From Paracoccus liaowanqingii (GTDB lineage Bacteria > Pseudomonadota > Alphaproteobacteria > Rhodobacterales > Rhodobacteraceae), in assembly GCF_004683865.2 (NCBI RefSeq), contig NZ_CP038439.1, positions 1,156,501 to 1,220,500 of the forward strand: a DNA stretch of 64,000 bases. Reading direction: 5' to 3'. Of the stretch, positions 5,368 through 64,000 are shown in pieces. The notes below the pieces were generated by a model, which did no database searches, was not told the DNA's origin, and saw nothing but the letters and a program-made list of their open reading frames with translations. Within the stretch, counting starts at the first letter, position 1, and each line of letters begins with the position of its first letter. Position numbers and translations under genes: made by a program.

Positions 5368-5467
5368 GAGCGGCCTGCCTTGGAATTTTCTGGCCCGTGG
5401 CTTAGCGGGTGGGGGCACCCTTCGCAACCGTCCCCGAACCTGAACCCGAACCCGAACAGGAAATCCC

Positions 5468-7695: not shown

Positions 7696-10454
7696 GCCTG
7701 CTCTGCCTCGGCCCGCTTGACGCCCTCGGCGATCGCCGCACGCAGCTTCTTTTCCAGCATGTCGCGCTTGGACAGGCTGTGCAGCTTCAGCCCGAACATG
7801 TCCTTGACGTAGAAGCTGTCGACGACCTGCGCGCCATAGGTGGCGATCACGGCGCTGACGATCTGGATGTGGTTCGCGGCCATGGTCCGGGTCAGGTCAT
7901 AGAGCAGGCCGGGGCGGTCGCGGGTGTCCACCTCGATGATGGTATAGATGTCGCTGCCCTCGTTGTCGAAGATGATGTGGGTCGGGAACTTGAACTCGCG
8001 GTTGCGCTTCTTGGGCTTGTCGCGGCTGGCAAAGGCCTCGCGGGCGACGATCTCGCCGGCCAGCGTGCGCAGGATGGTCTGGCGCAGCTTGGGCAACCTG
8101 TCCTCGGCGAAGGGATGGCCCTCGGCGTCCTGCACCCAGAAGACCGCCGTCGCATAGCCGTCGCGCGTCGTGTAGGTGCGCGCGTCCACCACGTTCGCCC
8201 CGGTCAGCGTCAGCGCGCCGGCCAGCCGCGAGAAGATGCCCGGATGGTCCGACAGCACGAAGGCCGTGCGGGTCGCGTCGCGGTCGGGATCGGCGCGCAG
8301 GTCGATGCGGATCTCGTCGGGGCCGATGCCCTTCAGCAATTCGGCGAAGACCGCCTGCGTCTGCGTGGGCAGGCCCGGCCAGTAGGCGTCGTAATGGCGG
8401 CCCAGTTCGGCGCGGATGGCGCGGGCCTCCCATCCCTTGGCGATCAGCATGTGGCGCAGGGACCGCTTCGCCTCGGCATGGCGGCGGTCGCGGTTCAGCT
8501 CTTCCAGGCCGTTTTCCAGGGCGGCGGCGGTCTCGCGGTGCAGCTGGCGCAGCAGCGCGGCCTTCCAGTTGTTCCAGGTGCCCGGACCCACGCCGCGGAT
8601 GTCGCAGACGGTCAGCACCAGCAGCATGTCCAGCCGCTTGCGGGTCTTCACCGCCTTGGCGAAGTCGCGCAGCGTGCGGGGATCGGAAATGTCGCGCTTC
8701 TGCGCCACGTCCGACATCAGCAGGTGATGGCGCACCAGCCATTCCACCGTGTCGATGTCGTCCTGCGCGAAGCCGAAGCGCGTGGCGATCCGCCGGGCGA
8801 TGCGCGCCCCCAGGATCGAGTGATCCTCGGGCCGGCCCTTGCCGATGTCATGGAGCAGCGTCGCCAGATAGAGGACTCGGCGGTTCACCCCGGATTCGAT
8901 GATCCCGCTGGACAAAGGCAGGTCGGCCGGATGCTCACCGCGCTCGATCTCGGCCAGGGCGGCGACGCATTGGATCGAATGCTCGTCGACCGTGTAATGG
9001 TGGTACAGGTTGAACTGCATCATCGCCACGACCGGCTCGAATTCCGGGATGAAGGCGGCCAGCACGCCCAGCTCGTTCATGCGGCGCAGGGCGCGTTCGG
9101 GATTGCCGTGGCGCAGCAGCAGATCCATGAAGATGCGGATCGCCTCGGGGTCGGACTGCACCGAGGCGTCGACCAGATGCAGGTTCGCCGCCACCAGCCG
9201 CATCGCGTCGGGATGGATCAGGATCGAGTTGCGCAGCGCTTCCTCGAACAGACGCAGGATGTTCAGCGGATCGGACAGGAACTGCGCCTCGTCGGCATAG
9301 GACAGCCGGCCCTGCTGGTCGACGAAGCCCGCGCGCATCTTGCGGCGCCTGCGGAAGATGCGGCCCAGGAAGGGGGCCGCGCGGACATGGCGGGTTTCCA
9401 GCTCGGTCAGGAAGACGCGGGTCAGCTCGCCCACGCGGGTCGCGTGGCGGAAATAGTCCTGCATGAAGTATTCGACCGCCCGGCGCGCGGTGGTGTCGGC
9501 ATAGCCCATGCGCCGCGCCACCTCGACCTGCATGTCGAAGGACAGCACGTCCACGGGCCGCCCCGCGATCAGGTGCAGGTGGCTGCGCACGGCCCAGAGG
9601 AAATCCTCGGCCTGCCAGAAGGACAGATGCTCCTCGCGCGAGAAGACGCCCAGGTCGACCAGCTCGACGGCACGGTCGACCTTGTGGATGTACTTGGCGA
9701 TCCAGTACAGCGTCTGCAGGTCGCGCAGGCCCCCCTTGCCCTCCTTGACGTTGGGCTCCAGCACATAGCGCTGGCCGCCTTGGCGCGTGTGGCGGGCGGC
9801 GCGCTCGTCCAGCTTGGCCTCGACGAATTCGGGGATGGTGCGCTCGAACAGCTCGGTCCACAGGCGGTGGCGCAGCTCCTCGGCCAAGGGGGCGTGGCCG
9901 GTCACCAGGCGATGTTCCACCAACGAGGTGCGGATGGTCATGTCGGCGGCGCCCAAGCGCAGGCAGTCGTCCACGCTGCGGATCGAATGGCCGATCTTCA
10001 GCTTGAGGTCCCACATCATGTACAGCATCGATTCGACGACGCTTTCCGCCCATGCGGTGATCTTCCAGGGCGTCAGGAACAGCAGGTCCACATCCGAGGC
10101 GGGCGCCATCTCGGCCCGGCCATAGCCGCCCACGGCCAGCACGGCCAGGCGCTCGGTCTCGGATTGCGACTGCTGGGGATGCAGGCGGGTGGTGGCGACA
10201 TGGTGGATGGCTGTCACCAGCGCGTCGGTTAGCCCCGAGATGGCGCGCACGGTCTCGCGCGCGGCCCGGGGATGGGTGGCGAAGGCCGCCTCGATGGCGG
10301 CCATGCCCTCGTGCCGGGCCAGGCCCAGGAAGGCGACCGCGCGGGCGCGCAGCTCCTTGGGGTCGTGGCAATCCTCCAGCTGCCGGTCCAGATGGTCCAG
10401 CAGCCGGGCGGGATCGAGGTCGGGCCGGATCAGCGAGGGGGCGGTCGGGGTCAT
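7692..10454 (-). CDS. glnD: [Protein-PII] uridylyltransferase / uridylyl-removing enzyme
   Basis: A 920-residue bifunctional nitrogen sensor that uridylylates PII proteins when glutamine is low and removes UMP when it is high. Domains in order are a nucleotidyltransferase with AVGGYGRAEMAPASDVDLLF (about residue 110), an HD hydrolase with LATLLHDIGKGRPEDHS (about residue 515), and two C-terminal ACT domains (FVLSDHPGIFSRLAGAL and VDTRDRPGLLYDLTRTM) that bind glutamine. Length and order match the family. The stop codon overlaps the murJ start, and the gene follows the lpoA-like gene by 22 bp. Confidence 0.97.
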   Translation of the reverse strand: MTPTAPSLIRPDLDPARLLDHLDRQLEDCHDPKELRARAVAFLGLARHEGMAAIEAAFATHPRAARETVRAISGLTDALVTAIHHVATTRLHPQQSQSETERLAVLAVGGYGRAEMAPASDVDLLFLTPWKITAWAESVVESMLYMMWDLKLKIGHSIRSVDDCLRLGAADMTIRTSLVEHRLVTGHAPLAEELRHRLWTELFERTIPEFVEAKLDERAARHTRQGGQRYVLEPNVKEGKGGLRDLQTLYWIAKYIHKVDRAVELVDLGVFSREEHLSFWQAEDFLWAVRSHLHLIAGRPVDVLSFDMQVEVARRMGYADTTARRAVEYFMQDYFRHATRVGELTRVFLTELETRHVRAAPFLGRIFRRRRKMRAGFVDQQGRLSYADEAQFLSDPLNILRLFEEALRNSILIHPDAMRLVAANLHLVDASVQSDPEAIRIFMDLLLRHGNPERALRRMNELGVLAAFIPEFEPVVAMMQFNLYHHYTVDEHSIQCVAALAEIERGEHPADLPLSSGIIESGVNRRVLYLATLLHDIGKGRPEDHSILGARIARRIATRFGFAQDDIDTVEWLVRHHLLMSDVAQKRDISDPRTLRDFAKAVKTRKRLDMLLVLTVCDIRGVGPGTWNNWKAALLRQLHRETAAALENGLEELNRDRRHAEAKRSLRHMLIAKGWEARAIRAELGRHYDAYWPGLPTQTQAVFAELLKGIGPDEIRIDLRADPDRDATRTAFVLSDHPGIFSRLAGALTLTGANVVDARTYTTRDGYATAVFWVQDAEGHPFAEDRLPKLRQTILRTLAGEIVAREAFASRDKPKKRNREFKFPTHIIFDNEGSDIYTIIEVDTRDRPGLLYDLTRTMAANHIQIVSAVIATYGAQVVDSFYVKDMFGLKLHSLSKRDMLEKKLRAAIAEGVKRAEAEQA

Positions 10455-37026: not shown

Positions 37027-37116
37027 GGAGATGTGGCCGAGTGGTCGAAGGCACGCCCCTGCTAAGGGCGCAGGCCCGAAAGGGTCTCGAGGGTTCGAAT
37101 CCCTTCGTCTCCGCCA
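37027..37116 (+). tRNA. tRNA-Ser (GCU anticodon)
   Basis: A 90-nt class II tRNA. The acceptor stem GGAGATG pairs with CGTCTCC (one G-U pair), followed by discriminator G and an encoded CCA. The anticodon loop CTGCTAA reads GCT (codons AGC/AGU), and there is a long variable arm (GCAGGCCCGAAAGGGTCTC) and T-loop GGTTCGAATCC. An integrase gene begins 109 bp downstream, so the 3' end is the probable attachment site of an island. Confidence 0.97.
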
Positions 37117-37225
37117 TTTTACTACAGCCAGTTTTTGTTATTTTATTGTATTTGCTGAGTTTATTAGGCGATGTGGGCGTCGTTGTCGAAATCTGCTATA
37201 CAATTTGCCATACAATCAGTGTTAC

Positions 37226-38545
37226 ATGCGCCTTGTAACTCAAGGGCAGACCATAGTGATTGCAACTCGCACCGGTTCGAAAAAAGGCGTTCTCCATCTG
37301 ACGCGAAGGGTCCCTAAGCGTTACGCTTCGGTGGAGCCGCGCAAGTTGGTGTCGTTCAGTCTGCACACGGATTCGATGTCGGCTGCCGTGGTCAAAGCCG
37401 CTGCTGTCTGGGACCAATTCATCGCCGGCTTGGAAGCGAAACTTGCAGGTGACACGACTGATGCCGAGCAGCGTTTTGCGGCCGCCCGTGATCTCGCTGA
37501 GGCCAAAGGTTTCCGTTTCTTGCGATCTGACAAGGTCGCGCAACTCCCATTGGAGCAATTGCGCGACCGCTTCGCCGCCATTTCCGGGTTCGATGAACAC
37601 TCCGAGAAACTCGACAAGCGCGAGGCGGCGGCCCTGCTCGGCGGCGTCGCCGAACCGCCCCTGACGATCACTCGGTGCCTGGAGCTTTATTGGACGCTTT
37701 CAAAAGACAAGAGATTGGGCAAGGCGCCCGATCAGGTTCGCAGGTGGGAGAACCCACGGAAGAAGGCTATCGGAAACCTCATCCAGGTGATCGGCGACAA
37801 GGCCATCCAAGAGATTACCGGCGATGACATGCTCGACTTTCGCAACTGGTGGCTGGAGAGGATTGAGGAGGAAGATCTTGCAGCCGCCAGTGCGAACAAG
37901 GACCTGATCCACCTTGGCGACGTCTTGAAGACTGTGAACAAGATGAAGCGCCTCGGCCTCGTGTTGCCTCTCACCGATCTCAAGCTGAAGGAAAGCGAAG
38001 CCAAGCGGCGGCCTCCTTTCTCACGCACGTGGATTACCGATAAGCTACTGGCCCCCGGAGCGCTGAACGGACTGAACGCCGAAGCGCGGGCAATCCTTCT
38101 CGCCATGATCAACACCGGCTGCCGGCCATCGGAACTGGCGGCGCTTACTGAAAACACCATCCACCTTGAGCACAACGTGCCCCATATCTCGATCGAGGCA
38201 GAGCTGCGTCAGGTCAAGACAAGCTATGCCCAGCGCAAGGTGCCGCTGCTTGGCGTGTCGCTGGAGGCGATGCGAGCCTTTCCCAGTGGCTTTCCGAGGT
38301 ATCGGGACAGCAGCGCCAGCCTGTCAGCCACGGTCAACAAGTTCCTGCGGGAGAACGGGCTGATGGAGAGCCCGGGGCATGTGCTGTATTCGCTGCGCCA
38401 TGCTTTCGAAGATCGCATGCTGGCGGCTGGTATCGATGACCGGATCAGACGGGATCTGTTCGGGCACCGTCTGACGCGGGAGCGGTATGGGGACGGGGCA
38501 AGCCTCGCGCAGAAACAGGAAATGCTTCAGGCCGCTGCCTTGTGA
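37226..38545 (+). CDS. Tyrosine-type site-specific integrase
   Basis: A 439-residue phage-type integrase. The N-terminal HLTRRVPKRYASVEPRK is the short SAM-like/DUF6538 type region seen in many alphaproteobacterial island integrases. The C-terminal catalytic domain shows INTGCRPSELAAL (first Arg), YSLRHAFEDRM (HxxR) and LFGHRLTRERYGDG (His and nucleophilic Tyr). The ATG at 37226 is chosen since the frame upstream runs through the tRNA. It lies just past tRNA-Ser and most likely inserted the island into the tRNA 3' end. Confidence 0.93.
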   Translation: MRLVTQGQTIVIATRTGSKKGVLHLTRRVPKRYASVEPRKLVSFSLHTDSMSAAVVKAAAVWDQFIAGLEAKLAGDTTDAEQRFAAARDLAEAKGFRFLRSDKVAQLPLEQLRDRFAAISGFDEHSEKLDKREAAALLGGVAEPPLTITRCLELYWTLSKDKRLGKAPDQVRRWENPRKKAIGNLIQVIGDKAIQEITGDDMLDFRNWWLERIEEEDLAAASANKDLIHLGDVLKTVNKMKRLGLVLPLTDLKLKESEAKRRPPFSRTWITDKLLAPGALNGLNAEARAILLAMINTGCRPSELAALTENTIHLEHNVPHISIEAELRQVKTSYAQRKVPLLGVSLEAMRAFPSGFPRYRDSSASLSATVNKFLRENGLMESPGHVLYSLRHAFEDRMLAAGIDDRIRRDLFGHRLTRERYGDGASLAQKQEMLQAAAL

Positions 38546-51500: not shown

Positions 51501-51952
51501 GTCAGGGCCAGATGTGCCCGGTCGCCGAATGTGTCCCGCAGACGGCGCAGGCGCAGGGCGCAGGTGTCGTCCGCCGTATCGGGGATCAGGATGGCCAGCA
51601 GCCCCTCGGCATGGGCCTGCAGATCGGCCCAGTCCAGATGGCATGCCCCCTTGCCCGCCCGGGCCTTGCCGATGGACAGCAGCCGGCAGAGCCGCGACCA
51701 GGCCGGACGGTCGGTGGGATAGACCAGCACCGACATGCCGCAGCGCAGATCCAGCCGGCAGCCGACGATCAACCGCACGCCGGTCTCCTTGGCCGCCTCA
51801 TGTGCGCGCACGATCCCGGCGAGGCTGTTCCTGTCGGTGACCGCCATGGCCTTGATCCCCAGAAGCGCAGCGGTGGCGAACAGCTCCTCGGCCGAGGACG
51901 CCCCGCGCAGGAACGAGAACTGCGAGGTGACCTGCAGCTCGGCATAGCTCAT
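48593..51952 (-). CDS. dnaE2: Error-prone DNA polymerase DnaE2 (ImuC)
   Basis: A 1119-residue C-family DNA polymerase that does translesion synthesis with ImuA and ImuB. The N-terminal PHP domain begins [20 protein letters not shown]. Catalytic aspartates lie in the [19 protein letters not shown] block, preceded by [18 protein letters not shown]. The OB domain and C-terminal signature [13 protein letters not shown] RVKTRDFK close it. The start at 51952 overlaps the imuB stop (ATGA). DnaE2 lacks proofreading, so its expression causes SOS mutagenesis. The three genes form one LexA-controlled operon, here carried by the island. Confidence 0.96.
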
Positions 51953-53469
51953 CCGAACACCCCGTGGATGAACCAGCGATGCGAGCCGGTGGTCGCATCC
52001 TCGCCGTCGCCGGCGCGGAAGATCCAGAAGCGCTGCCCGGCCTCGTCCTCGATGCGGAAGTAGTCCCGCACCGCCCGGGCCTCGGCATCGCGCTTCCACC
52101 ATTCGCCGAAGATCCGCTCGGGCCCGTCGGCGCGGCGGACCCGGTGGCGGATGCCGCGCCAGGAGATCCAGTTCGGCGGATGGTCGGGCAGTAGCGCCAG
52201 GGTGTCGATGGGCTCGGGGCGGGGCAGCAGGCGCGAGGGGCGGGGCCAGTGCCCCGGCCAGCCCAGGCCCTGATCCGGCGACAGCGCCGCGATCCGCGCC
52301 ACCGAGCGTTCCGGTATGTCGCTGGCCACCGGGCTGAGGCGATAGACGGCACGGTGCCCGACGCGGTTGGCCAGCATGTCCACCAGATCCGAGATGTCCG
52401 GCGGGGCCTGCTCCAAAAGGCTGCTGGCCTGCCGGGGCACCAGCGGCTCGGCGAGGGTGGCGGTCAGGGTGATGATCTCGATCCCGAAGCCCGGGTCGAT
52501 GCCGGGGATCTTGTCGCAGAGCAGCCGGGTCAGTCGCTTGGGGTCGCGTTGGGCCACGGCCAGTCCCACGCGGACCGTCTCGATCCGGTTGTCGACCCGC
52601 CAGCACAGCAGGTCCAGCCGCCGGGCGCCTTCGGACCTCGCCTCCAGCGCGGCGCAGAGATCCACGACCAGCTTGCCGATGTAGCGGGCGATGGTCTCGG
52701 CGGCGGCGATGGGTTCGGCGAAGCTGCGGCGCACTTCCACCAGGCCCGCGGGGCGCAGGGGATCGATGGGCTCGGCCACCTCGCCCAAAGCCTGATCCAG
52801 CCTTCGACACAGCTCCGGGCCGAAGCGCAGGGTCAGCGGCGCGCGGGGGGTCTCCATCAGGTCGCCGATGGTGGCGAAGCCCAGATCCCGCAGCCCGGCC
52901 ACGGTGGCATGCGGCAGCCGCAGGGCCGCCAGGGGCAGCGGGGCCAGCACTGCGGCCGTGGCGCCGGGCAGGGCGATGCAGGCTGTGCTCTCGCGGTGGT
53001 GACGGGCCAGCGCATGGGCCGCGCCCCAGGTGTCGGCGATAGCAAGGCGTGCGGTGATGCCCGACAGGGTCAGGCGCCCCAGCAGCATCTCCAGCAGCGC
53101 CTCCTCGCCGCCATGCAGTTGATCGGCGCCGGTGACGTCGATCACCACCCCATCGGGCGGATCGACCACCACGATCGGCGCGATGCGCTGCAGCAGCCAC
53201 AGGCCAAGCCGCTCCAGCGCCTCCAGATCGGCGCGCGGATCGGCGGGCTCGACGCGCAGATCCGGGACCAGCGCCTGCGCCTTGCTCACCGGCATGCCGA
53301 TGCGCAGGCCCTGTCCCATGGCCGCCTCGCAGGCGGCGGTGACCACTCGGCGGTTGCCGACCCGTCCTACCAGGATCAGCGGGGCCTCAGCCGAGGGCGT
53401 GCTGTCTGCCTGCCGCTGCCGCCGATCGATCGGCCACATCGGCAGGCAGACCGAGATGACCCGTGCCAT
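51949..53469 (-). CDS. imuB: Y-family polymerase-like protein ImuB
   Basis: A 506-residue protein related to Y-family polymerases. Its N-terminal [19 protein letters not shown] and the palm segment [20 protein letters not shown] are typical of ImuB, a non-catalytic hub that bridges DnaE2, ImuA and the beta clamp. The C-terminal half is helical with a [20 protein letters not shown] segment. It overlaps imuA by 83 bp and dnaE2 by 4 bp. I do not see an intact catalytic acidic triad, consistent with a scaffold role. Confidence 0.93.
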
Positions 53470-54145
53470 CGCAACCCTCCAGCTCGAGATCGAAGGACTC
53501 GCCCGCCCGCGCCCGGATCAGCTCGATCAGCCAGCGGGGCCGGCCGACGCCCGGGACGGGCAGGGGGGCCGAGGGCAGCACCGAGACCCGCCAGCGGGTC
53601 ATCGCCGCCGTGGGCTGCCCGAAATCGCTGGCATCCGCCTGCCGACGCCAGCGCCGGAGCGCGATGCCGGTGGTCCCCGAGGCCTTGGCCGCCAGATGCA
53701 GCCGCCGCGAGGCGGTCATCGACAGCTTGGCCACATCCGCCACCACCGCACCCAAGCCCCCGTGCCGCAGCCCTTCCTCCATGCAGGCCAGCACAGCGGT
53801 GTCGTCTCCCGCCTCGACATAGATCACCCGGTCCGGTGACAGGCCCGCCTGCTCCAGCCCCGGGGCGAACAGATCGGCCTGGGTCACGCACCACAGCACC
53901 ACCCCCGGCAGGCGGGCGGCAATACCGGCGGCGAAGCAGGCCGCCGCCGCGCCATCCACTGCCCCGCCACCACCGCCCGCCACTTCGTGCAGGCAGCCCC
54001 TCGCCAGCCCGCCCTGCGGCATCCGGCGGTCGAGCATGTCCACGCCGAAGGGCAACACCTCGCGCGCATGCATCTCCTCACCCTCGAGATGGGCGATGCG
54101 GGCGCGCAGGGCGGCGACGGTGGGGCGGGAAACGGCATCGGGCAT
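53387..54145 (-). CDS. imuA: SOS mutagenesis protein ImuA
   Basis: A 252-residue RecA-like ImuA, the first gene of the imuA-imuB-dnaE2 mutasome. VLPFGVDMLDRRMPQGGLAR is the conserved N-terminal segment, and LHEVAGGGGGAVDGAAAACF sits where RecA has its P-loop but lacks the GKT lysine-threonine, as usual in ImuA. A perfect LexA box ends 43 bp upstream of the ATG. It is divergent from a disrupted SRAP gene. Confidence 0.92.
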   Translation of the reverse strand: MPDAVSRPTVAALRARIAHLEGEEMHAREVLPFGVDMLDRRMPQGGLARGCLHEVAGGGGGAVDGAAAACFAAGIAARLPGVVLWCVTQADLFAPGLEQAGLSPDRVIYVEAGDDTAVLACMEEGLRHGGLGAVVADVAKLSMTASRRLHLAAKASGTTGIALRRWRRQADASDFGQPTAAMTRWRVSVLPSAPLPVPGVGRPRWLIELIRARAGESFDLELEGCDGTGHLGLPADVADRSAAAAGRQHALG

Positions 54146-54187
54146 GGTGGGGCAGGGGGCCTTTCATCTCAAAGTTGCGGAATCGTA

Positions 54188-54202
54188 GTTCCTGTTTTGT
54201 TC
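54188..54202. promoter_or_regulatory. LexA box of imuA (and of divergent SRAP gene)
   Basis: GTTC-CTGTTTT-GTTC is a perfect alphaproteobacterial LexA operator. It lies 43 bp upstream of imuA and 95 bp upstream of the reconstructed SRAP start, so one site could control both directions. Confidence 0.85.
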
Positions 54203-54299
54203 TTATTGCGGCAATGTGTCAACCGGGGAAGGCCATCGTGATCCGGGAGAGTGCGGGCACACCGAGTTCAGCTATGCTGAACTGAAGGAAGAGGAGATG

Positions 54300-55683
54300 T
54301 GGGTCGTGTGCTGGTGTGGACGGCTTCTTAACCCACCGGCTTAATGACGTCGCTGTCAAAAGCCAGTTGAGAGGAGAGATCCGATGAAGACCATACCCAT
54401 CCGTATCGGCATGGACACGTCGAAGTCCGTCTTCCAGTTGCACGGAGTTGACGCCAACGAAAATACTGTTGTTCGACGTCAGCTTCGGCGCGCCGAGATG
54501 ATCCGCTACTTTGAGAAGCTGCCCCCTGCGCTGGTCGCGATCGAATCCTGCGGCAGCTCGCATCATTGGGCGCGCGTTCTCTCGTCGTTCGGTCATGACG
54601 TCAAGCTGATACCGCCGCAATATGTGAAGCCTTACGTGAAGCGTGGGAAAAACGATGCGGCCGACGCCGAAGCCCTTTGCGAAGCGGTAACACGGCCGAA
54701 CATGAGGTTTGTTCCGATCAAGTCGACGGAGCAACAGGCGGCATGCATGCTGATGACCGTTCGGGAACGTCTGGTCAGCGTCAAGTCGCAGCTTTCCAAC
54801 GCCTTTCGGAGCTATGCTGCTGAATTTGGCATCGTCGGGCCGGCAGGGCGGCAGAACGTTAATGCATTGATCAAGCGGGTTCTCGAGGATGACACCCTCC
54901 CAGAGCTGGCGCGGGATCTTTTCCGTTTTCAGGCGAAAGAATACGCAGCGGTCGAAGCACGCCTTGAGGAGATCGAAACCAGACTGATGGCGTGGCATCG
55001 GGACGATGATGTCAGTCGGCGACTTGCAACGATCCCTGGTATCGGCCCCATAGGATCGGCCATGCTGAGCATGAAGGCCCCGCCCGCCAAGAGTTTTCGA
55101 TCAGGTCGCGACTTCGCTGCCTGGATCGGTCTGACACCAAGGGACCATTCGACGGGTGGGCGAATGCGTCATGGTGGCATCACCAAGGCTGGCGACGCCG
55201 GGTTGCGATCAGTGCTGGTTGTCGGTGCCACGGCGTTGCTCAGGCATATCAGGGCGGGCCGACACAAGCCGACACCTTGGCTCGCGGCGCTCCTCGAGCG
55301 CAAGCCGCCGAAGCTAGTCGCCGTCGCACTGGCCAACAAATTCGCGCGTATTGCCTGGCGCCTGATGGTGTCGGGTGGAATTTATAGTCGACCACCTGAC
55401 AGGATGGCGGCATAATCCGAGATAGGGCTGTCGCGGGCGGGTGCCCGGCAGATAGTCTTGCCAGACTTGCAGGACGCAGGAGATGGAAAAACCAATCGGT
55501 CGATACGCGCGTGATTCCGAAGATTACACTGGCATCGACGATGCCGCCTGTGTGCTTGGAGCGGGCGTAGCGAACACCATCTGGGCCAGCGAGCTAACCT
55601 CGCACAAACAGGCCGGACATCTGATAGCAAGCGATTTGGTTAGAAGTCTGCTACAATCCTGACAAGTGGGGGCCGTCCACATC
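54300..55683 (+). mobile_element. IS110-family element (IS1111-like)
   Basis: About 1384 bp. A single transposase gene occupies 54384-55415. A 10-bp inverted repeat TGTGGACGGC (54315-54324) and its complement (55672-55681) lie slightly inside the ends, as in the IS1111 group. The left non-coding part is short (about 84 bp) and the right one long (about 268 bp), which fits a bridge RNA encoded downstream in this group. Boundaries were deduced from the SRAP gene it interrupts, with a possible 2-bp ambiguity (TG). Confidence 0.75.
54384..55415 (+). CDS. IS110-family transposase
   Basis: A 343-residue DEDD recombinase. The N-terminal RuvC-like domain shows RIGMDTSKSVFQLHGVD (first Asp), LVAIESCGSSHHWAR (Glu) and RGKNDAADAEALCEAV (Asp pair). 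The C-terminal Tnp20 domain shows LATIPGIGPIGSAMLSM (helix-hairpin-helix) and DHSTGGRMRHGGITKAGD with the serine nucleophile, and ends LANKFARIAWRLM. Full length and intact, so the element may still be mobile. The start follows TTGAGAGGAGAGATCCG. Confidence 0.95.
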   Translation: MKTIPIRIGMDTSKSVFQLHGVDANENTVVRRQLRRAEMIRYFEKLPPALVAIESCGSSHHWARVLSSFGHDVKLIPPQYVKPYVKRGKNDAADAEALCEAVTRPNMRFVPIKSTEQQAACMLMTVRERLVSVKSQLSNAFRSYAAEFGIVGPAGRQNVNALIKRVLEDDTLPELARDLFRFQAKEYAAVEARLEEIETRLMAWHRDDDVSRRLATIPGIGPIGSAMLSMKAPPAKSFRSGRDFAAWIGLTPRDHSTGGRMRHGGITKAGDAGLRSVLVVGATALLRHIRAGRHKPTPWLAALLERKPPKLVAVALANKFARIAWRLMVSGGIYSRPPDRMAA

Positions 55684-56334
55684 TGCAATTTATATAATCT
55701 GACCAGCAACCAGCAGGCGATCCGGGACTTCGTGCGGATCACCCATGACATTACCGGAAATCTGGAGCCCGGTCTTGACGTCTACCCCGACCGCCCGGCA
55801 CCCGTCATCCGGCAGACTAGCGAGGGGCGGGAACTGTCGCGGATGAAGTGGGGCATGCCCACCCCGCCGCAGTTCCTGAAGACCCCGGATGCCCCCGACA
55901 CCGGGGTTACCAACATCCGCAATACCGCCAGCCCTCATTGGCGCCGTTGGCTGGGCCCAGAGAACCGATGCATGATCCCTGCTACGGCTTTCTCGGAATA
56001 TGGCCAAACCCCGGATCCGGTAACTAGGCGCAAGCCGCTATGCTGGTTTGCGGTGGATGAGACACAACCGTTGTTCGTCTTCGCCGGGATCTGGACGACA
56101 TGGCACGGGACGCGCGGGTCGAACCGCACTCCACGGCCGGGGGAGCATCAGCTATTCGGGTTTTTGACGACCGAGCCGAATGCCGTTGTGAAGCCGGTCC
56201 ATCCCAAAGCCATGCCGGTTATCCTGACGACGCCGGAGGAGATCGACGTATGGCTTAACGCCGAATGGAAGGACGCCAAGGAGTTGCAAAGGCCGTTGGC
56301 AGATAAGGATCTGGTGCAACTAGCGAAAGGGTAA

Positions 56335-56598
56335 TCACTAAACAGATTTGGTTCAGGCGACCGAAGCAAAGGGCGGAGAGCCGACCTTTTCCGCATCTGC
56401 AGCCTGCTGCGATTAAAACTGGGGAGTGGACATGCCTACTGGACTAGTGCCGAGCACGGCCATGTCGGGCGGAGTGCAGACTCTCGCTGTGCAACTCATC
56501 GACGTCGAATCGCTTAGCTTGTGCTTCGAAGTAATCTTTCCGATTTCGAAGGGCCTAAGCTAAGGTTTGGACTCAAAAAATACAAAGCCACGAGCAGC
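56335..56598. other. Intergenic upstream of conflict-system gene
   Basis: This 264-bp gap has no gene. It would hold the promoter of the TPR gene. An in-frame GTG at 56521 could extend that gene by 26 residues, but the extension (SNLSDFEGPKLRFGLKKYKA) looks non-family. Confidence 0.45.
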
Positions 56599-59118
56599 AT
56601 GGTCAACGTCACAAGTGTAAATCTTCCCGCGCCGACCGACTGGCAGGCATTCGAGCGGCTGACGAGGGATCTGTTCGAAAGCGAATGGCAGACAGACGAC
56701 GCCCGCGCCAATGGCCGGTCGGGCCAAGAGCAGCATGGTGTCGATGTTTTCGGCACCGACCGGGTTCACAAAAAGTGGGTTGGCATCCAGTGCAAAGGCC
56801 GCTCCGGCGGAAGCTACGGGAAGGCGCTTAAAGAAAAAGATCTTCGTGAAGAAGTCGAGAAGGCCAAGGCTTTCCGACCCCCACTCGACAGGTTCATCCT
56901 CGCTACCACAGCCCCCAATGATGCGCGAATACAGGAAGTCGCGCGAGAGCTGAACGAGAAGAACCGCAAGGAGCTTCTCTTCGAAGTCGATGTTATGGGT
57001 TGGGACGAAATCAAAGCTGTTCTCAATCGCCATCCTCACGTCGCGGCGATTCATTGTTCGGGCGTATCAACGATCGCCGACCTCCAGATATCGGAAGCGA
57101 TGAATGACCTGCGCGGTGACATCTCCAGGGAGCTGACAGGGATCTCATCCGCCATCCTTGATTTCCAAAGGTCAGCCTCGGCAGCAATAGAGAGAGAACC
57201 GTCCGATGACGCACTCGGTCAGCGCATCACCGACGCCGCCGATCTTCTGAATGATAGCCCTGCGCAGTCGGCCATCTCCCGGCTCGAGAAGCTCTTGGAA
57301 ACCGAAGGCCGCGAAGCGAGCGCGCGAAATCGCTTTCGTCTGAAGGCCAATCTTGGATCCGCCCATTTTGCAAAGGGTGACAAGGATACAGCCATAGATT
57401 GGTATCGTCAGGCTCACGATGAGTATCCTGATACATCCGAAGCGCTATCCATACTGGCGGCTGCTGAGTCCATCGCAGGCAATCGTGAGAAGGCGGCTGA
57501 ACTGGCCGCCAGCGCCATGGCGATGCGAGAGCCACAACAGCGGGCAGCCGGAGTGTTCCTGGAGACGGCTCCCGCGGAAACGCCATGGCAAGAGCTTCAG
57601 GACCAGCTTCCGAAACAGTTTCAGCGGATCCCAGAGTTCCTTCTGGCACTCGCGGAGCACGCCCAGAAAGCGGGCCAGATCACGGATTGCCGACGGTTGA
57701 CCAAGGATGCGGTCAATAGAGATCCCGAGAACTGGCGCGTGCGCGCATATGCGGGCTACCTCAGGTTCCAGGAGTTAGCCGAGCGAGAAGACATCCGCAG
57801 CCTCAGGCTCATGCGGAAAAGCGACATCGAGATCGTCGAGGATGCGAGAGCACATTTTCTTCTTGCCTGGGACCTTCTGCAGGCAAGCGGATGGGCGCGA
57901 GAGGCCGAAACCTGCGTCATGAACGCCCTCTCGGCCTCCCTGATGCTTGGGGATGACGAGAAGGCCGAAGAGCTCATCGAAGAAGCATTCCGGAAACTGG
58001 GAGATGCGCCGCAACTACTCCGGTTCCGCGCTGCTTATCAGATGCACAAGGGTGAGAATTCCGCGGTTGCCGATGCGCTATCGAGGATTCCCGAAGGCGA
58101 TCGGGATCCGAATGACGAGCTCATGCTTCTCCAGGCGCGCATCAATGAAGATGATCCAGAAGCAGCCCTCGCACGTGCCGAAGTATTGTATCGAGAAGCG
58201 GAGGACGACAGTTTGCGTATTGCATTTGGCAACTGCCGTATCCTGGCGGCAGCACAGGTCAGCCCAGCTCTCTTTAAAGAAGTTGCCCATGACGTCATGA
58301 CCGAGCATCCAGACTCCACTCTGCTCTTGGCCTGCTTCGTGTTCAACTATCCCGGCGATCTCGACGATCCCACGGTCATCGATCGCCTTGCCGAGTTGTC
58401 AGGGCATGAAACCAACAGCTTCGCTCGTGTCGGTGCGGCCCATGCCCTTGCGAGGGTCGGGCGGAACTCGGACGCCGCGGACATATACATCGACCTCTGC
58501 AGTCCTGACACGGATACGCCCCAGCTCAGGATGGCACTTCAGACACTGGTGAACAGCCGCAGAACCCGCGAAGCCCGAGAACTCTACGGGAAAATCGACG
58601 CCGGGATCAAAGATACCCCGAGCATGCGCAGGATCGGCTCAGTCATCTTTCAATGCGCTGGAAACCTGACGGGTGCCAGGAAGGAACTCGAGCACGTGTT
58701 CAGAACGGGGGAAGAAACCCTGGAAGACCGAGCTCGCTGGATCGATATCTGTGAGCGTCAGCCGGATACCACGGCAATCGCTCAATACCTCGACACCGTG
58801 CCAGTGGATATTGCCGGCAATCCCCGGATGCGTATGCACTTCGCACACAAACTTGATCACTACACGGACGATTTTCACAAGGCTTTAGAGATTGGATACC
58901 GCGCGTTGCGCGACGGCTACGAAGACTCGCAAATACACCTTGGCTTCATGGTCGGGTTGATCCTGACCGGCCGGTCTGGGCGACATGTCGATTTCAACCG
59001 CGAAGTCGTCGAGGAGGATACGGTCGTTGTGGTCTCGCGAGATCACGCTGACCCGCTCACGAGGATCATCGAGACAGCCCCTGTCCCACGGGGCGGACCG
59101 CGACGAAATTTCCCCTGA
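56599..59118 (+). CDS. Restriction-nuclease-like/TPR protein, N-terminal part of a split TPR-GreAB-C-PIN effector
   Basis: An 839-residue protein. Residues ~10-165 are a PD-(D/E)XK nuclease-like domain: ERLTRDLFESEW (Glu19), EQHGVDVFG (Asp49) and WVGIQCKGRSG (Gln64, Lys66) give the E...D...QxK catalytic set of Mrr-type endonucleases. Residues ~190-780 are a long array of helical TPR repeats (e.g. ANLGSAHFAKGDKDTAIDWY). The end (about 795-829) starts a GreAB-C fold (REVVEEDTVVVVSRDHADPL), which continues in another frame. The ORF ends with ten frame-shifted residues (GPRRNFP) after 59090. I call this the front half of one gene; see the next feature. It stands alone downstream of the IS-broken SRAP gene. 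Confidence 0.75.
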   Translation: MVNVTSVNLPAPTDWQAFERLTRDLFESEWQTDDARANGRSGQEQHGVDVFGTDRVHKKWVGIQCKGRSGGSYGKALKEKDLREEVEKAKAFRPPLDRFILATTAPNDARIQEVARELNEKNRKELLFEVDVMGWDEIKAVLNRHPHVAAIHCSGVSTIADLQISEAMNDLRGDISRELTGISSAILDFQRSASAAIEREPSDDALGQRITDAADLLNDSPAQSAISRLEKLLETEGREASARNRFRLKANLGSAHFAKGDKDTAIDWYRQAHDEYPDTSEALSILAAAESIAGNREKAAELAASAMAMREPQQRAAGVFLETAPAETPWQELQDQLPKQFQRIPEFLLALAEHAQKAGQITDCRRLTKDAVNRDPENWRVRAYAGYLRFQELAEREDIRSLRLMRKSDIEIVEDARAHFLLAWDLLQASGWAREAETCVMNALSASLMLGDDEKAEELIEEAFRKLGDAPQLLRFRAAYQMHKGENSAVADALSRIPEGDRDPNDELMLLQARINEDDPEAALARAEVLYREAEDDSLRIAFGNCRILAAAQVSPALFKEVAHDVMTEHPDSTLLLACFVFNYPGDLDDPTVIDRLAELSGHETNSFARVGAAHALARVGRNSDAADIYIDLCSPDTDTPQLRMALQTLVNSRRTREARELYGKIDAGIKDTPSMRRIGSVIFQCAGNLTGARKELEHVFRTGEETLEDRARWIDICERQPDTTAIAQYLDTVPVDIAGNPRMRMHFAHKLDHYTDDFHKALEIGYRALRDGYEDSQIHLGFMVGLILTGRSGRHVDFNREVVEEDTVVVVSRDHADPLTRIIETAPVPRGGPRRNFP

Positions 59119-60592
59119 TGACCCATTGGCTCTTCGCCTGATGGGAAAGGCTGTGGGTGACAATCTCCCGATGGATTCCGCTGTCGGGAGGCTGAACGCC
59201 ACCGTCACAAAGATACTGTCCAAGTATGCCCATGCGTATCATCGGTCTCAAAAGGACTTCGAGCGCCTGTTTCCTGAAAGCAAGATATTCGGAGCGCTGC
59301 GGATCGATGAAAATGATCTGGAAGGCAGCTTTCGTCCCATCCTCGAAAGCGCCAAGAAGCGCACAGAGCAGGTCAAGCGCATCGAGGAGGCCTACGCTTC
59401 CGGGAAAGCCCCCATAGCTTTGTTGGCCTCCGCTGGTGGAGGCACGGTTTTCGATTTCTGGGATTTCCTTCGGCACCACGGCAGCATCAAGATCAAGATG
59501 GCCCTCGGTAATGCCGTCGAGAGGAAGGCGGCGACACAATCGGTTCTGGCTACGCCTGGCCTGATTATAGATGCCATCACCCTATACGGCGCCCAGACCC
59601 TCGGATTTGTAGGCAGCATTCTTCAAGCCTACCCAGATCTGCACATCACCCAGAGCAGCATCGATCTGCTTCACGAGGCCCACCAAGCCAGGGTGGATGC
59701 CATCGGAGGTGCGGGACACCGAGGTAGCCTTGTCGCGGACGATCACGGGACGCGCATAATCGAAATGTCCCAGGAAACCTCCGACCTCCTCATCTCGAAC
59801 CTCAGACAAACCCTCGAGATTGCAAGAGGCCTAGCGATCGCCATGCCGCAAGAAGGCACCACTCTTCATCCGGATTTTGAAGCTGTATTCAAAGATGTTG
59901 GCCCTTGTTTCGTAGATACGTTGGTAGTCGCCAAGGAGAGAGGTTGGACCTTGCTGGCGGATGATACTGCTCTCCGGCTGTTCGCCGGCATGGATGGTAT
60001 TTCATCGGCTTGGAGCCAGGTTGCGCTGCAGATCGCGCGCAATGCGGGCGCGCTTTCGCAGGATGCGTATTCTGATGCCCTCGGGGCAATGCTGGAGGGG
60101 AACTACCGCTACGTCAGCATCGACGGAGACACGACGCAGTTCGAATGGGAACGCAAGGATACGTCGCCATGGCTTAGCCAATTCCTTGATCATATCGCCC
60201 TACCGACAAACGACCCCTGGAGCATTGCTCAACTGATCGGGTCCACTCTCTTGGATCTCTGGGACGGTGAGGACAATGGTGCCCTTTGTGCCGCCTATGC
60301 CGCCTTCATGCTTGAAGCTCTCTCAGAGAGGTTAGGCGAAGATGGGGCGGTGAAGATGCTGGGTGACTCGGTAGCCGCGGCAATCTCAAGGGCGCAGCGA
60401 AACGCTCGCATGATCAAACTCCCCCCAATCCTGTCGAGAACTACCAGCCTCGCTTCCCCAAGTTTTCTGGCCCAGGAAATCAATCGCGACCATAAAGAAG
60501 CCGTCTTTAACACAATAGGTGACTGCGTGAAGTCAGCGCGGAAACCAGCTAAGCTTCCTTCAATTGATCTCATGGTTCATGGTGATGAATGA
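59087..60592 (+). CDS. GreAB-C and PIN domain part of the split conflict effector
   Basis: Open in another frame from 58985 and similar to the family from about 59087. DEISPDDPLALRLMGKAVGD then ILSKYAHAYHRS completes the GreA/GreB C-terminal domain begun in the preceding frame. LLASAGGGTVFDFWDFL is a linker/helix block, and a PIN nuclease follows: TPGLIIDAITLYGAQTLG, LHITQSSIDLLHEA and GWTLLADDTALRLFAG supply the acidic cluster. Without a frameshift the two parts would make one protein of about 1330 residues. No ribosome site or sensible start exists near the join, so this half is probably only made if the frame is corrected. Adjacent downstream genes are unrelated. Confidence 0.75.
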   Translation, partial: HGADRDEISPDDPLALRLMGKAVGDNLPMDSAVGRLNATVTKILSKYAHAYHRSQKDFERLFPESKIFGALRIDENDLEGSFRPILESAKKRTEQVKRIEEAYASGKAPIALLASAGGGTVFDFWDFLRHHGSIKIKMALGNAVERKAATQSVLATPGLIIDAITLYGAQTLGFVGSILQAYPDLHITQSSIDLLHEAHQARVDAIGGAGHRGSLVADDHGTRIIEMSQETSDLLISNLRQTLEIARGLAIAMPQEGTTLHPDFEAVFKDVGPCFVDTLVVAKERGWTLLADDTALRLFAGMDGISSAWSQVALQIARNAGALSQDAYSDALGAMLEGNYRYVSIDGDTTQFEWERKDTSPWLSQFLDHIALPTNDPWSIAQLIGSTLLDLWDGEDNGALCAAYAAFMLEALSERLGEDGAVKMLGDSVAAAISRAQRNARMIKLPPILSRTTSLASPSFLAQEINRDHKEAVFNTIGDCVKSARKPAKLPSIDLMVHGDE

Positions 60593-60811
60593 CGTTACAC
60601 GACACAAGGGTCTGCTTTCCGGAGCCGCGTTGCAGAAACCGGTGGGCCAGCGAATGACCGTTTCGGGCCGTTCGGTCCACTGGTGAAGCATTTGCTATTC
60701 ATTGCCCAGGCATTCGCCCAACCTGCGTTAACTATCGCTTACGTCATACATCGAATGGAGTTTGAGGCGATAAGCGGAGGCTTGGAAGCTCTCCGCCAAT
60801 GGAGGACCCCA

Positions 60812-61246
60812 ATGGAAACCATGATTCTGAATCGCGGACGTCTCATCGATCATCTGCATCTGGTGGTTGAGGACTATCCCGGCGCCTTGCGCTTCTACAG
60901 CGCGGTGCTTCAAGTGCTGGATGTGCCGATCGGCGGCTCAGGCGAGGACTATTTCTGGGCCGACGAGCTGTTCGTCTCGACCGTTGGAAGCGAGGCGGCG
61001 GCAGGCGTGCCCACTGGGCGGCACCATCTTGCATTTCAGGCAGCCAGTCGCGAGATTGTGGATGCCTTCCACGCGGCAGGAGTCGCCGCAGGGGGGTGCG
61101 ACAATGGCGCGCCCGGCTTACGGCCGTATCACCCGCAATACTACGGCGCCTTCCTCCTGGATCCTGCCGGAAACAACATCGAGGCGGTCTATCACGGCCC
61201 GGCTGCCCGAAGCGCGCCCTCGGTAACGGTCGAATTCGAGTCGTGA
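60812..61246 (+). CDS. VOC (glyoxalase/dioxygenase-fold) protein
   Basis: A 144-residue vicinal-oxygen-chelate protein. LIDHLHLVVEDYPGALRFYS is the first half-motif with its metal His, ADELFVSTVG and GRHHLAFQAASREIVDAFHA give the second ligand, and YGAFLLDPAGNNIEAVYHG supplies the Glu. Substrate is unknown. The ATG at 60812 follows TGGAGGACCCC. The preceding 200 bp show no gene. It may mark the return to ordinary chromosome. Confidence 0.85.
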   Translation: METMILNRGRLIDHLHLVVEDYPGALRFYSAVLQVLDVPIGGSGEDYFWADELFVSTVGSEAAAGVPTGRHHLAFQAASREIVDAFHAAGVAAGGCDNGAPGLRPYHPQYYGAFLLDPAGNNIEAVYHGPAARSAPSVTVEFES

Positions 61247-61621
61247 AAGGCCTGTCATCTTGCAGCAAATCCAATCCGAGCAGCTACCATCGGGAAATTG
61301 ACGACTGCGTGCTTACAAGGTGTCTGTCGGCTTTAGGTCGCCGAGACGGCTGACTTTACTTTTCCTGTCTGCCCCTTCTCTTGGTCCTTCGGCTGACCTG
61401 CTCCCATAGACGCTATCCTATGTCCACGGGACCACGCCTTGCTTTTACAGCTGTCCTATTTTTAGTCGACGCGCGAGTGTCGCCAGCCGCTGGCCGTCAG
61501 CATGAAATCAGCCCGTCTTTGCGCAACGGGACAAGTTTGCTTCGTCCTGTGCTAAGCCAAATGAATGGGATGCTCTACTCTTGCAGCATCTGCGGCCAAT
61601 CCCCATCGGAGGAAAGAAAGA
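61247..61621. other. Intergenic region before betaine-type binding protein
   Basis: This 375-bp gap holds no supported gene and is AT-richer near 61430-61480. It probably carries the promoter and operator for the choline/betaine binding protein. The strong ribosome site CGGAGGAAAGAAAG directly precedes the next ATG. Confidence 0.5.
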
Positions 61622-62560
61622 ATGAAGCGCACGATCGTTTTCGCAACTCTCGTCTCGGCCACGACGCTGTCACCTGTCCATGCAGCCGAGGCCGAGGCAT
61701 GCCGGGCCCCAAGCTTTTCGGACGTTGGTTGGACGGACATCACCGCGACGACCAGTGCCGCAGCAATTGTTCTGGAAGGGTTGGGATACACCCCTGAAAT
61801 TCAGATCCTGTCGGTGGCGGTGACGTTTGAATCGCTAAGACAAGGTGACACGGACATTTTCCTAGGCAACTGGATGCCGTTGCAGGAGCCGCAGCAGAAG
61901 CCCCTGGTCGATGCCGGCGATATCGAGGTGATCCGCCCCAATCTGGAAGGCGCATTGATCGGCTTTGCCGTGCCCAAGGTGACCTATGACGCGGGGCTGA
62001 AGACCTATGCCGATATAGCCGCATTTCAAGACCAGCTGGGCGGGCAGATCTATGGCATCGAGGCAGGCAGCAGTGCCAACACCACGATCCTGAAGATGAT
62101 TGAGGAGGACAGCTTTGGTTTGGGCGAGTTTGAGCTTGTCGAATCCAGTGAGCAGGGAATGCTGGCGCAGGTCCAACGTGCCATCGGGTCAGAGGACGCG
62201 ATCCTGTTCTTCGGCTGGCGGCCCCACCCGATGAACGTGCGCTATGAACTGGAATACCTGACCGACGGCGACGACATGTTCGGGCCCAACGATGGCGAGG
62301 CGACCGTGCTGACGAACACCCGCAAGGGTCTGTCCGCCGACTGTCCAAATCTAGGCGCTTTCCTGGCCAATCTGGCCTTCACAGTCGAGGCCGAGGATAT
62401 CATGATGTCCTATATCCTCGATGAGGGGTTGGAACCGCGCGATGCGGCAACGCGCTGGCTGACCGAGAACCCTGCCGTGCTGGACGGCTGGCTGGCAGAT
62501 GTAATGACCTTTGACGGCCAGCCGGGACTAGCTGCCGTGACGACCGCCCTAAATCTTTGA
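61622..62560 (+). CDS. Choline/betaine-type ABC transporter substrate-binding protein
   Basis: A 312-residue periplasmic protein of the OpuAC/ChoX family. The signal peptide is KRTIVFATLVSATTLSPVHA. The mature protein shows VGWTDITATTSAAAIVLEGL, the DIFLGNWMPL stretch with a binding-site Trp, and IEAGSSANTTILKMIEE and FFGWRPHPMNVRYELEYL. Such proteins form an aromatic box for quaternary amines such as choline, betaine or carnitine. No transporter permease or ATPase is nearby in the window. Its stop overlaps the GlxA gene end by 12 bp. Confidence 0.88.
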   Translation: MKRTIVFATLVSATTLSPVHAAEAEACRAPSFSDVGWTDITATTSAAAIVLEGLGYTPEIQILSVAVTFESLRQGDTDIFLGNWMPLQEPQQKPLVDAGDIEVIRPNLEGALIGFAVPKVTYDAGLKTYADIAAFQDQLGGQIYGIEAGSSANTTILKMIEEDSFGLGEFELVESSEQGMLAQVQRAIGSEDAILFFGWRPHPMNVRYELEYLTDGDDMFGPNDGEATVLTNTRKGLSADCPNLGAFLANLAFTVEAEDIMMSYILDEGLEPRDAATRWLTENPAVLDGWLADVMTFDGQPGLAAVTTALNL

Positions 62561-63517
62561 TCCGCGCCGGGCAGCCGTCGGCGGCTGCCCGAACCGCCGC
62601 CGGAAGGCGCGCGACAGCGAAGCGATAGATGAGAACCCCGTGCGCACGGCGATATCGGCCATGGGAAGATTTGTATCTACAACTAGCCTGCGGGCTAATT
62701 GTAGGCGTAAGGCCAGATAGTAGGCCGCCGGCGAGGTCTGGACCAGATCGCGGAAAAGACCTTCCAGGGTGCGGGTGGAACATCCTGTCCGGCCGGCGAT
62801 CTCACGGATCGACAGCGGGGTGTCGAGATGCTGTTCCATGAGGGCGACGACCGGTGCCAAGCGCCGGTCCAGATGGCTGTGGCGGCCAAGCGAGACAAGG
62901 GGCTGCGCGTCGGTCGGCAGATGCACCTCGTCATAGACATAGACGCTCGCGACATTCAAAGCCGAGCTTGTCCCCTGCCGCGCCCGGATCAAGGCCAGCA
63001 TGAAATCCAGCGCCGGGGCGGCACCTCCCGTGGTGAAGACCGGCCCGTCCACGACCCACCGGTCCGGGATCACGCGGATCTGTGGAAAGCGGGCTGCAAA
63101 ATCCTCCAGATCCTCCCAATGGGTCGTGGCGCGGCGCTGATCCAGCAGTCCGGCCATCGCCAGCACCCAGCTGCCAGCCTCGATGCCGCCGACCATGCGG
63201 GCGTGCCGTGCGGCCTGACGCAAGGTCGCCAACAGGGCGGGTGTGGCATGGTGCGCAACATTAAAAGCGGCGACTACGATCAGCAGGTCGCAGTCGCCCT
63301 GCGCGGCCAGCGGACCGTCGACCTGCAGGGCCAGCCCGCAGCTTGTGCAGACCGGCTGGCCGTCGATCGACACGACCCGCCAGCGATAGGGCTGCTGCCC
63401 TGAGATGCGGTTGGCCGCGCGCATCGGGTCCAGCGTTGCCGCCACACTCATCAGGGACGCGTCGGGCAGGATCAGGATCGTTGCCGTCAGGGGCTGGTCG
63501 GATTGCTGGAACACCAT
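62549..63517 (-). CDS. GlxA-family AraC-type regulator
   Basis: A 322-residue transcription regulator with an N-terminal DJ-1/PfpI-like domain (ILILPDASLMSVAATLDPMR, VGGIEAGSWVLAMAGLLD with Glu and Ala in place of the catalytic Cys) and a C-terminal double helix-turn-helix of AraC type (LSIREIAGRTGCSTRTLEGL; MADIAVRTGFSSIASLSRAF). Such regulators include CdhR and GbdR, which sense carnitine or betaine. Position between a betaine-type binding protein and a likely carnitine enzyme supports that. It lies 39 bp after the thioesterase-like gene. Confidence 0.88.
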   Translation of the reverse strand: MVFQQSDQPLTATILILPDASLMSVAATLDPMRAANRISGQQPYRWRVVSIDGQPVCTSCGLALQVDGPLAAQGDCDLLIVVAAFNVAHHATPALLATLRQAARHARMVGGIEAGSWVLAMAGLLDQRRATTHWEDLEDFAARFPQIRVIPDRWVVDGPVFTTGGAAPALDFMLALIRARQGTSSALNVASVYVYDEVHLPTDAQPLVSLGRHSHLDRRLAPVVALMEQHLDTPLSIREIAGRTGCSTRTLEGLFRDLVQTSPAAYYLALRLQLARRLVVDTNLPMADIAVRTGFSSIASLSRAFRRRFGQPPTAARRGSKI

Positions 63518-63556
63518 CCGCGCCTCAATCCGGCAGCATCTGGCCCGGCGCCGATC

Positions 63557-64000
63557 TCAAGGCCGCAGGCCGACGGACCTGCCCGCGCCCTCGGGTGCCG
63601 GTATTCCGGCATGGCGGGCCACCCAGTCCGACAAGCGCGCAGCGACCGCCGGATCCGGGTCCGAGGTGCGCCGGATGGTCAGGTCCGTGTGCAGCAGCAT
63701 CGTCTCGACCGTGGCGGCAAGAGTGTCATCGCGCCACAGGCGGTTGAACAGATGCAGCCGCTTGCCCGCACCCGCCAGCACCTGTGTGGTCACTGTCAGG
63801 CGATCGCCCGCCTGCACCTCGTCTAGATGCCGGATGTGGCTTTCGACCGTAAAGTAGCTCCGGCCCGACGCGATGTAGTCCGCATCGGCCCCAATCATTT
63901 GCATGAAGCGGTCGGTGGCCAGGGATGCCGTCTCCAGGTAATGCGTCTCGTTCATGTGGCCGTTATAGTCGGTCCAGCTGACGGGCACCTGCCGCATGGC
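63557..64000 (-). CDS. Thioesterase-domain protein, probably C-terminus of carnitine dehydrogenase fusion (partial)
   Basis: A 4HBT hotdog-fold domain of about 147 residues that starts at the window edge: VPVSWTDYNGHMNETHYLET holds the catalytic Asp, and SYFTVESHIRHLDEVQAGDR and GKRLHLFNRLWRDDTLAATV follow. Rhizobial L-carnitine dehydrogenases carry a betainyl-CoA thioesterase just like this at their C-terminus, so the reading frame may continue upstream out of the window. A Met at 63997 exists, but it would start abruptly at the domain. The linked GlxA regulator and betaine-type binding protein suit carnitine catabolism. A free thioesterase is the alternative. Confidence 0.7.
   Translation of the reverse strand, partial: AMRQVPVSWTDYNGHMNETHYLETASLATDRFMQMIGADADYIASGRSYFTVESHIRHLDEVQAGDRLTVTTQVLAGAGKRLHLFNRLWRDDTLAATVETMLLHTDLTIRRTSDPDPAVAARLSDWVARHAGIPAPEGAGRSVGLRP

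Follow-up and report, generated by a model that had tools for sequence, protein, structure and literature searches.

The gene described here lies in a window of 64,000 nucleotides from Paracoccus liaowanqingii, to which all window coordinates refer, and spans positions 56599 to 60592 of the forward (+) strand, on a 3.27-Mb contig of its own genome in which each piece of the gene has a single match. Two overlapping reading frames on this strand encode a restriction-endonuclease-like (REase) head, tetratricopeptide repeats (TPR), a GreA/GreB C-terminal domain (GreAB-C) and a PIN domain. The first frame (56599-59118, +) contains the head, a linker, the TPR-like repeats and the N-terminal portion of GreAB-C and meets a stop after the frame changes, and the second (58985-60592, +) contains the remaining part of GreAB-C, a helical middle, PIN and a helical tail. 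A first-pass annotation, made from the letters alone, had read the two frames as one protein of about 1330 residues. Intact orthologues, each with one open frame, were found in Heliomarina baculiformis (locus L039), Pseudooceanicola pacificus (L040) and Maritimibacter harenae (L041), with heads 95%, 94% and 93% identical to that of the window, respectively. Because these orthologues from three other genera are continuous in one frame, the stretch is one gene, as that annotation had proposed, and because L039 and L040 are nearly identical, the three amount to about two independent orthologues. The proposed limits and length were also borne out: the ATG at 56599 agrees with the start methionine of the three orthologues, the second frame stops at 60592, and the intact orthologue has 1329 amino acids counted from its ATG.

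Alignment of the DNA with all three intact orthologues placed the change of frame at 59060-59120 (+), where a single-base length difference occurs near 59080, the remaining gaps all being multiples of three; the break falls inside GreAB-C. The Ka/Ks ratio of the window copy against L039, L040 and L041 was 0.139, 0.141 and 0.161 in the part preceding the break and 0.184, 0.182 and 0.165 in the part following it, in comparison to 0.118 and 0.199 before and after the same position for L039 against L041. Purifying selection is similar on both sides, and therefore the break either is recent or reflects an error of sequencing. Provided that the sequence is correct, a full-length protein is impossible from the window copy by standard decoding. 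The single frame expected of a TPR-GreAB-C-PIN system is found in the three orthologues and not in the window copy, and since the orthologues are intact, the alignments indicate that the gene family qualifies as such a system and that the window copy is a pseudogene or contains a sequencing error. A copy in Acetobacter persici (L057), distantly related to that of the window, is also broken (L057 9499-9532); in a profile of 1318 positions the two breaks lie about 11 positions apart, both in GreAB-C. This coincidence could speak for a programmed frameshift that yields a head-and-TPR form besides the full-length form, but the L057 sequence comes from a shotgun contig, the simplest event is a difference of one base, and 38 distinct full-length relatives, which include the three close orthologues, are uninterrupted in one frame, so that we regard such a frameshift as highly improbable.

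To place the domains, Pfam profiles were scanned against pieces of the window and judged by their curated cut-offs. PIN-TPR-GreABC (PF20698, E=1.1e-16, 61.8 bits against a cut-off of 27.8) and TPR_14 (E=1.9e-10, 40.8 bits against 23.5) passed, and GreA_GreB (0.011) and Mrr_cat (0.0068) remained below. Profile and fold searches together back each of the four domains named by the first-pass annotation, a nuclease-like head, TPR, GreAB-C and PIN; an NCBIfam scan gave no equivalog near its cut-off. Residues were counted over the 38 full-length relatives, column by column and not jointly per protein, and every catalytic-position residue of the head and PIN was present in 33 to 38 of the 38. The PIN nuclease domain (59564-59986, +) corresponds to the PF20698 match at residues 161-301 of the window piece P0001, and the same profile was matched by 20 of 20 family cores (set A3). 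In a Foldseek search with the core model of L039, the PIN protein 1v8p appeared at ranks 13 and 14, with TM-scores of 0.73 and 0.72 by target length. The four acidic residues of PIN, all Asp, are present in the window copy, at 59570-59572 (Asp in 38/38 relatives), 59663-59665 (35/38, with Glu in 2 and Leu in 1), 59915-59917 (37/38, with Glu in 1) and 59963-59965 (36/38, with Glu in 2), all on the + strand. The C-terminal helical tail (59987-60592, +) follows, with pLDDT below 50 over the last 64 residues of the L039 model.

The TPR-like helical repeats occupy about residues 200-790 (57196-58968, +), with the TPR_14 match at residues 248-288, and this region showed the lowest median pairwise identity among six regions compared, 0.221 over 703 pairs in comparison to 0.386 for the head. 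The GreA/GreB C-terminal-like domain (58990-59215, +), located by family profile, Foldseek and alignment with the genome's own GreA, is split by the frame change, its N-terminal part lying in the first frame and its C-terminal part in the second. The window match to GreA_GreB spans positions 36-75 of the 77 in the profile, which is the portion within that frame. At the family level, 16 of the 20 cores matched GreA_GreB at E<=0.05, the best at 1.7e-7. When a profile of the 20 cores was searched against the PDB, the best match was Escherichia coli GreB (2p4v, E=1.4e-5), with an alignment that runs through the loop preceding the GK.VGD-like motif, and seven of the eight matches were GreB, GreA, Rnk, Gfh1 or a GreA/Gfh1 chimera, the eighth being a molybdenum-cofactor protein. 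The first 12 Foldseek ranks for the L039 core model (mean pLDDT 70.0) were likewise all GreA/GreB, Gfh1 or Rnk entries.

The head (about residues 1-166; 56599-57096, +) was modelled by AlphaFold from the window's own 215 residues together with 26 relatives, with a mean pLDDT of 71.6. The model contains a helix at residues 15-29, strands at 50-54 and 59-66, a helix at 79-89, a strand at 98-103, a helix at 109-125 and a strand at 129-133, an order of elements that, in the model, is that of the PD-(D/E)XK core. The first five Foldseek rows (probability 0.96-1.00) were Avs4 (8dgf), which gave the best E-value (1.1e-3, probability 1.00), two chains of a Pyrococcus repair endonuclease (2vld), EcoO109I (1wtd) and AF1548 (1y88), and Can2, Card1 and Cap4 appeared at lower rows, mixed with unrelated entries. 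These top rows are PD-(D/E)XK nucleases, and the head is nuclease-like, which answers the check on its fold that the first-pass annotation had suggested. That annotation had also placed the active-site candidates correctly: Glu19 (56653-56655, +) is Glu in 33/38 and Gln in 5/38, Asp49 (56743-56745, +) is Asp in 38/38, and in the QxK motif formed by Gln64-Cys65-Lys66 (56788-56796, +) Gln64 is present in 38/38 and Lys66 in 36/38, with Arg in the other 2/38. In Pfam, Mrr_cat and Mrr_cat_2 each matched 13 of 27 heads at E<=0.05. By its modelled core fold and its E..D..QxK residues the head is a putative PD-(D/E)XK (Mrr-like) nuclease, and DNA cleavage is predicted for it.

Proteins of this design have been described before, by authors whom we take to be Kaur and co-workers. 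In section 7 and the legend of Fig. 2K of that paper (PMC8195603, eLife 2021), TPR-GreAB-C-PIN conflict systems are presented as mostly standalone genes, with variable N-terminal heads, REase and HNH among those listed, on a constant core, and it is predicted that GreAB-C engages RNA polymerase, that PIN cuts the transcript and that the head serves as a back-up killer. The membership claimed by the first-pass annotation agrees with this description in both core and REase head: PF20698 PIN, TPR before GreAB-C and an N-terminal effector in the variable position are all found here, and GreA/B-C between TPR and PIN, which falls below the cut-off in the window piece alone, is found at the family level. 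The differences from the published systems are that the window copy is frame-broken and that the archetype in the paper has an EAD10 head, whereas REase heads dominate our sample. The conflict system, including its REase head, is already published (PMC8195603), and the window gene adds to a known family; what is added here is evidence of movement, residue counts, a fold match for the head and a remodelled Gre loop, with the kind of system unchanged. No experimental test of the family was found in the literature searched, most subscription journals lying outside its scope.

The core piece, searched against 390 genomes of the order, matched in 5, counting the own genome and a fragment. PF20698 was over its cut-off in 10 of 398 genomes of a phylum sample and in 2 of 385 of a class sample, the own genome being in both, and among 14 control genomes there was one match (Methanocaldococcus jannaschii) and none over the cut-off. 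The census by core query comprised 26 open frames with PIN, namely 3 from the order search, 13 from the 14 plasmid loci examined, 9 from the phylum sample and 1 from the class sample. Throughout the analysis L003, L021 and L039 were counted as one gene, and likewise L025, L048 and L077. In this mostly alphaproteobacterial sample, 21 heads were REase (10 of these calls having themselves been rows of the head model), 3 were of a second type (L011, L014, L022), 1 was a phosphorylase (L015; PF01048, 2.3e-8) and 1 could not be assigned (L080). Two of the 26, L080 and L086, pass the PF20698 cut-off and are not matched by our own core model, so that GreAB-C is presumed in these two. Because sets A3 and A4 and the 38 relatives include loci found by head query, only the census of 26 frames is free of head-query bias. 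The head query itself gave 25 loci. Head and core share a single frame at 19 of them and are split at 2 (L047, L057); 1 (L055) encodes a double-PIN protein of 2064 amino acids, and 3 (L042, L043, L061) have no core match.

The first-pass annotation would have been refuted by orthologues that always lack the N-terminal domain, and this is not what is seen, since head and core are joined at 19 of the 25 head-query loci and the head is present in 21 of the 26 core-query frames. Its further suggestion that the pairing of a DNA nuclease head and a PIN tail is less usual was not supported: REase is the majority head (21/26), and PMC8195603 already names both REase and HNH heads. In a tree of 45 cores, the proteins with the second head type grouped in a single clade (100/100) surrounded by REase rows, and the phosphorylase row stood beside an REase row on a long branch of unsure place. 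This is in keeping with replacement of heads on a constant core as described in PMC8195603. The N-termini of the second type contain a Gly-rich hydrophobic stretch (VPxxGG-like) and gave no convincing Pfam match. The PF20698 protein of L080 (3544-6852) has a short N-terminus with a GSGDIVGGDK stretch. A sister design is seen in L055 (6962-13153), where the same head is joined to HTH_upstream_double_PIN (PF24407) and two PF20698 stretches; it resembles our proteins in its head and its related PIN and differs from them in its length of 2064 amino acids and in having no GreA_GreB or TPR match. VapC-type PIN toxins share with our proteins the PIN fold and the four acidic residues and differ in that PIN is here fused into a protein of about 1330 amino acids for which no common upstream partner was seen. 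PIN systems DS-3 and DS-5 are described in PMC13092281.

The family is mobile. Among 72,556 plasmid records, 17 matched, of which 9 were predicted to be conjugative, 6 mobilizable and 2 neither, the 15 of 17 conjugative or mobilizable records including near-duplicates. The loci of 14 of the 17 were examined (H8, H9 and H11 were left out), and a neighbour named SIR2, Shedu, CBASS or AbiE was present within 7 kb in 5 of them (L007, L008, L010, L014, L017); plasmid locus L019 is truncated beside an IS21 element. Between L039 and L040, from Heliomarina and Pseudooceanicola, identity is 0.55-0.75 in the dus region and then 0.992-1.0 from about 4.0 kb to the end of the locus, over more than 10 kb, a pattern that indicates that the gene travels on a dus-adjacent element common to the two genera. 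In L039 this element contains Phage_integrase, AbiJ_NTD3+Abi_C, RelE and an exonuclease. In L041 a reverse transcriptase gene lies upstream, and further up, about 3.5-6 kb upstream, there are a tRNA-Gln and a sub-cut-off integrase match (0.00059). An IMG/VR contig (L064) carries an intact REase-TPR-GreAB-C-PIN gene (4059-8096) between integrase and capsid genes, with an integrase (9e-25) beside the gene and a capsid gene (9.5e-40) and a cement gene (4.6e-25) on the same contig. Phage records gave no match, and none of 9 stretches from viral contigs searched with the PIN piece was confirmed.

The plasmids, the dus-adjacent element with its RelE-family gene and the copy on a viral contig would also suit a gene whose main role is to maintain its own mobile element, as an addiction or competition module that is not chiefly anti-phage. 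No antitoxin-like partner is common to the loci in the upstream same-strand frames, and this alternative seems to us rather improbable. On three Hyphomicrobiales plasmids (L017, L018, L020), an HTH gene and an open reading frame ending 9 bases upstream precede the gene. This pair, common to the Sinorhizobium, Bosea and Ancylobacter loci, was considered as a general partner and rejected, being absent at the other loci when upstream same-strand frames were compared.

The first-pass annotation had further placed the gene on a tRNA island, which the surroundings do not bear out. The sole tRNA found in the window, a tRNA-Ser at 37027-37116, is 19.5 kb from the gene, and a genome of the same genus (G1107) has stretches that match 51786-54311, 55684-56319 and 61630-63998 in collinear order at 82-86% identity, so that the flanks of the gene are shared. 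The 3' end of the tRNA-Ser has no exact repeat of at least 13 nt elsewhere within the window, and the far end of an island was not found there; a tRNA-integrated island was therefore rejected for this gene. The tRNA-Ser is followed directly by a phage-type integrase frame (37027-38542 for the two), a feature separate from the gene. On the SRAP and OpuAC sides, G1107 differs only in an IS110 element and in the variable slot that separates the SRAP and OpuAC genes (56320-61630, delimited by the G1107 comparison and domain scan); in the window this slot is occupied by the present gene and a glyoxalase-family gene, and in G1107 by unmatched content. The IS110-family transposase (54384-55415), absent in G1107, lies between the SRAP gene and the gene at 53390-54145, which we take to be imuA and which is present in three copies, 96-100% identical, on three contigs of this genome.

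Having observed the domains, the residues retained at catalytic positions, the one-gene architecture, the mobility, the defence genes near some copies and the break, we consider that the gene probably encodes a TPR-GreAB-C-PIN conflict protein with a PD-(D/E)XK head. It would be a system of one gene that spreads horizontally and presumably acts against invaders, and in this strain it is broken. The docking, trigger, substrates and outcome that we infer would be as follows. The intact protein would be inactive at rest, restrained by its TPR solenoid, with GreAB-C docked near the secondary channel of RNA polymerase. Transcription of an invader, or the binding of an invader protein to the fast-evolving TPRs, might then alter the RNA polymerase complex, upon which PIN would cut RNA and the head DNA, and either the invader or the cell would be killed.

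Several results weigh against this reading. The window copy is broken, SIR2, Shedu, CBASS and AbiE are all missing among the named neighbours at 9 of the 14 plasmid loci, and PADLOC gave weak matches only, the best being PDC-S73 on the head (E=0.003). None of 507 Foldseek matches for the head and none of 355 for the L039 core model reached E 0.001, mean pLDDT was only 70-72 for these models, and the lower head rows include non-nucleases such as CD38. Mrr_cat stays under its Pfam cut-off in the window, and a sequence search of the PDB with the head profile returned no nuclease, its 7 unconvincing matches (E 0.011-0.95) being mostly gp41 constructs. The Gre domain also differs from its relatives. 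GreA, GreB and Gfh1 have the same C-terminal domain, but Gre factors carry an N-terminal coiled coil where the family has TPRs, and the Ser-Pro loop that makes the beta-prime contact in Gre factors is altered. Where GreB has Ser122, a numbering we presume from our own count on the GreB sequence, the family has His in 29/38 and Ser in 3/38, and the window copy and its orthologues have Asp. One position earlier, D or E stands in 16/38, and the loop Pro is retained in 22/38. Because the loop is altered, a GreB-like contact is not established.

The same remodelled loop bears on two other readings. In one, the TPR solenoid would directly bind a conserved phage protein and release the nuclease head, as in Avs proteins, with GreAB-C serving for docking or oligomerisation only and RNA polymerase not being sensed. 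Avs4, an N-terminal-nuclease STAND defence protein, was solved bound to a phage portal and is the first Foldseek row (8dgf) for the window head, at 19% identity in that row, and the low identity of the TPR region is as a direct sensor would have it. The matched portion of Avs4 is not evident from that row, however, no STAND NTPase (ATPase) match was found in the window pieces or the seven relatives scanned, the family has kept a Gre domain that can be recognised, no ligand is known, and Avs4 differs from the window protein in that the latter has GreAB-C and PIN; this reading is possible, if unlikely. A further tentative proposal, which we also consider unlikely, is that of a guard on RNA polymerase, in which the altered Gre loop, with Ser changed to His in most relatives, would park the protein on the host enzyme without transcript cleavage, and phage RNA-polymerase inhibitors that displace it or block its site would let the TPR solenoid release the DNA and RNA nucleases; phages that carry the gene would then exclude rival phages.

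Because it is broken, the window copy itself matters little. In this sample, copies of the family are spread over the alphaproteobacteria and beyond, and because intact relatives and the residues of both nuclease centres are named here, the 2021 prediction of docking to RNA polymerase is testable with ordinary mutants.

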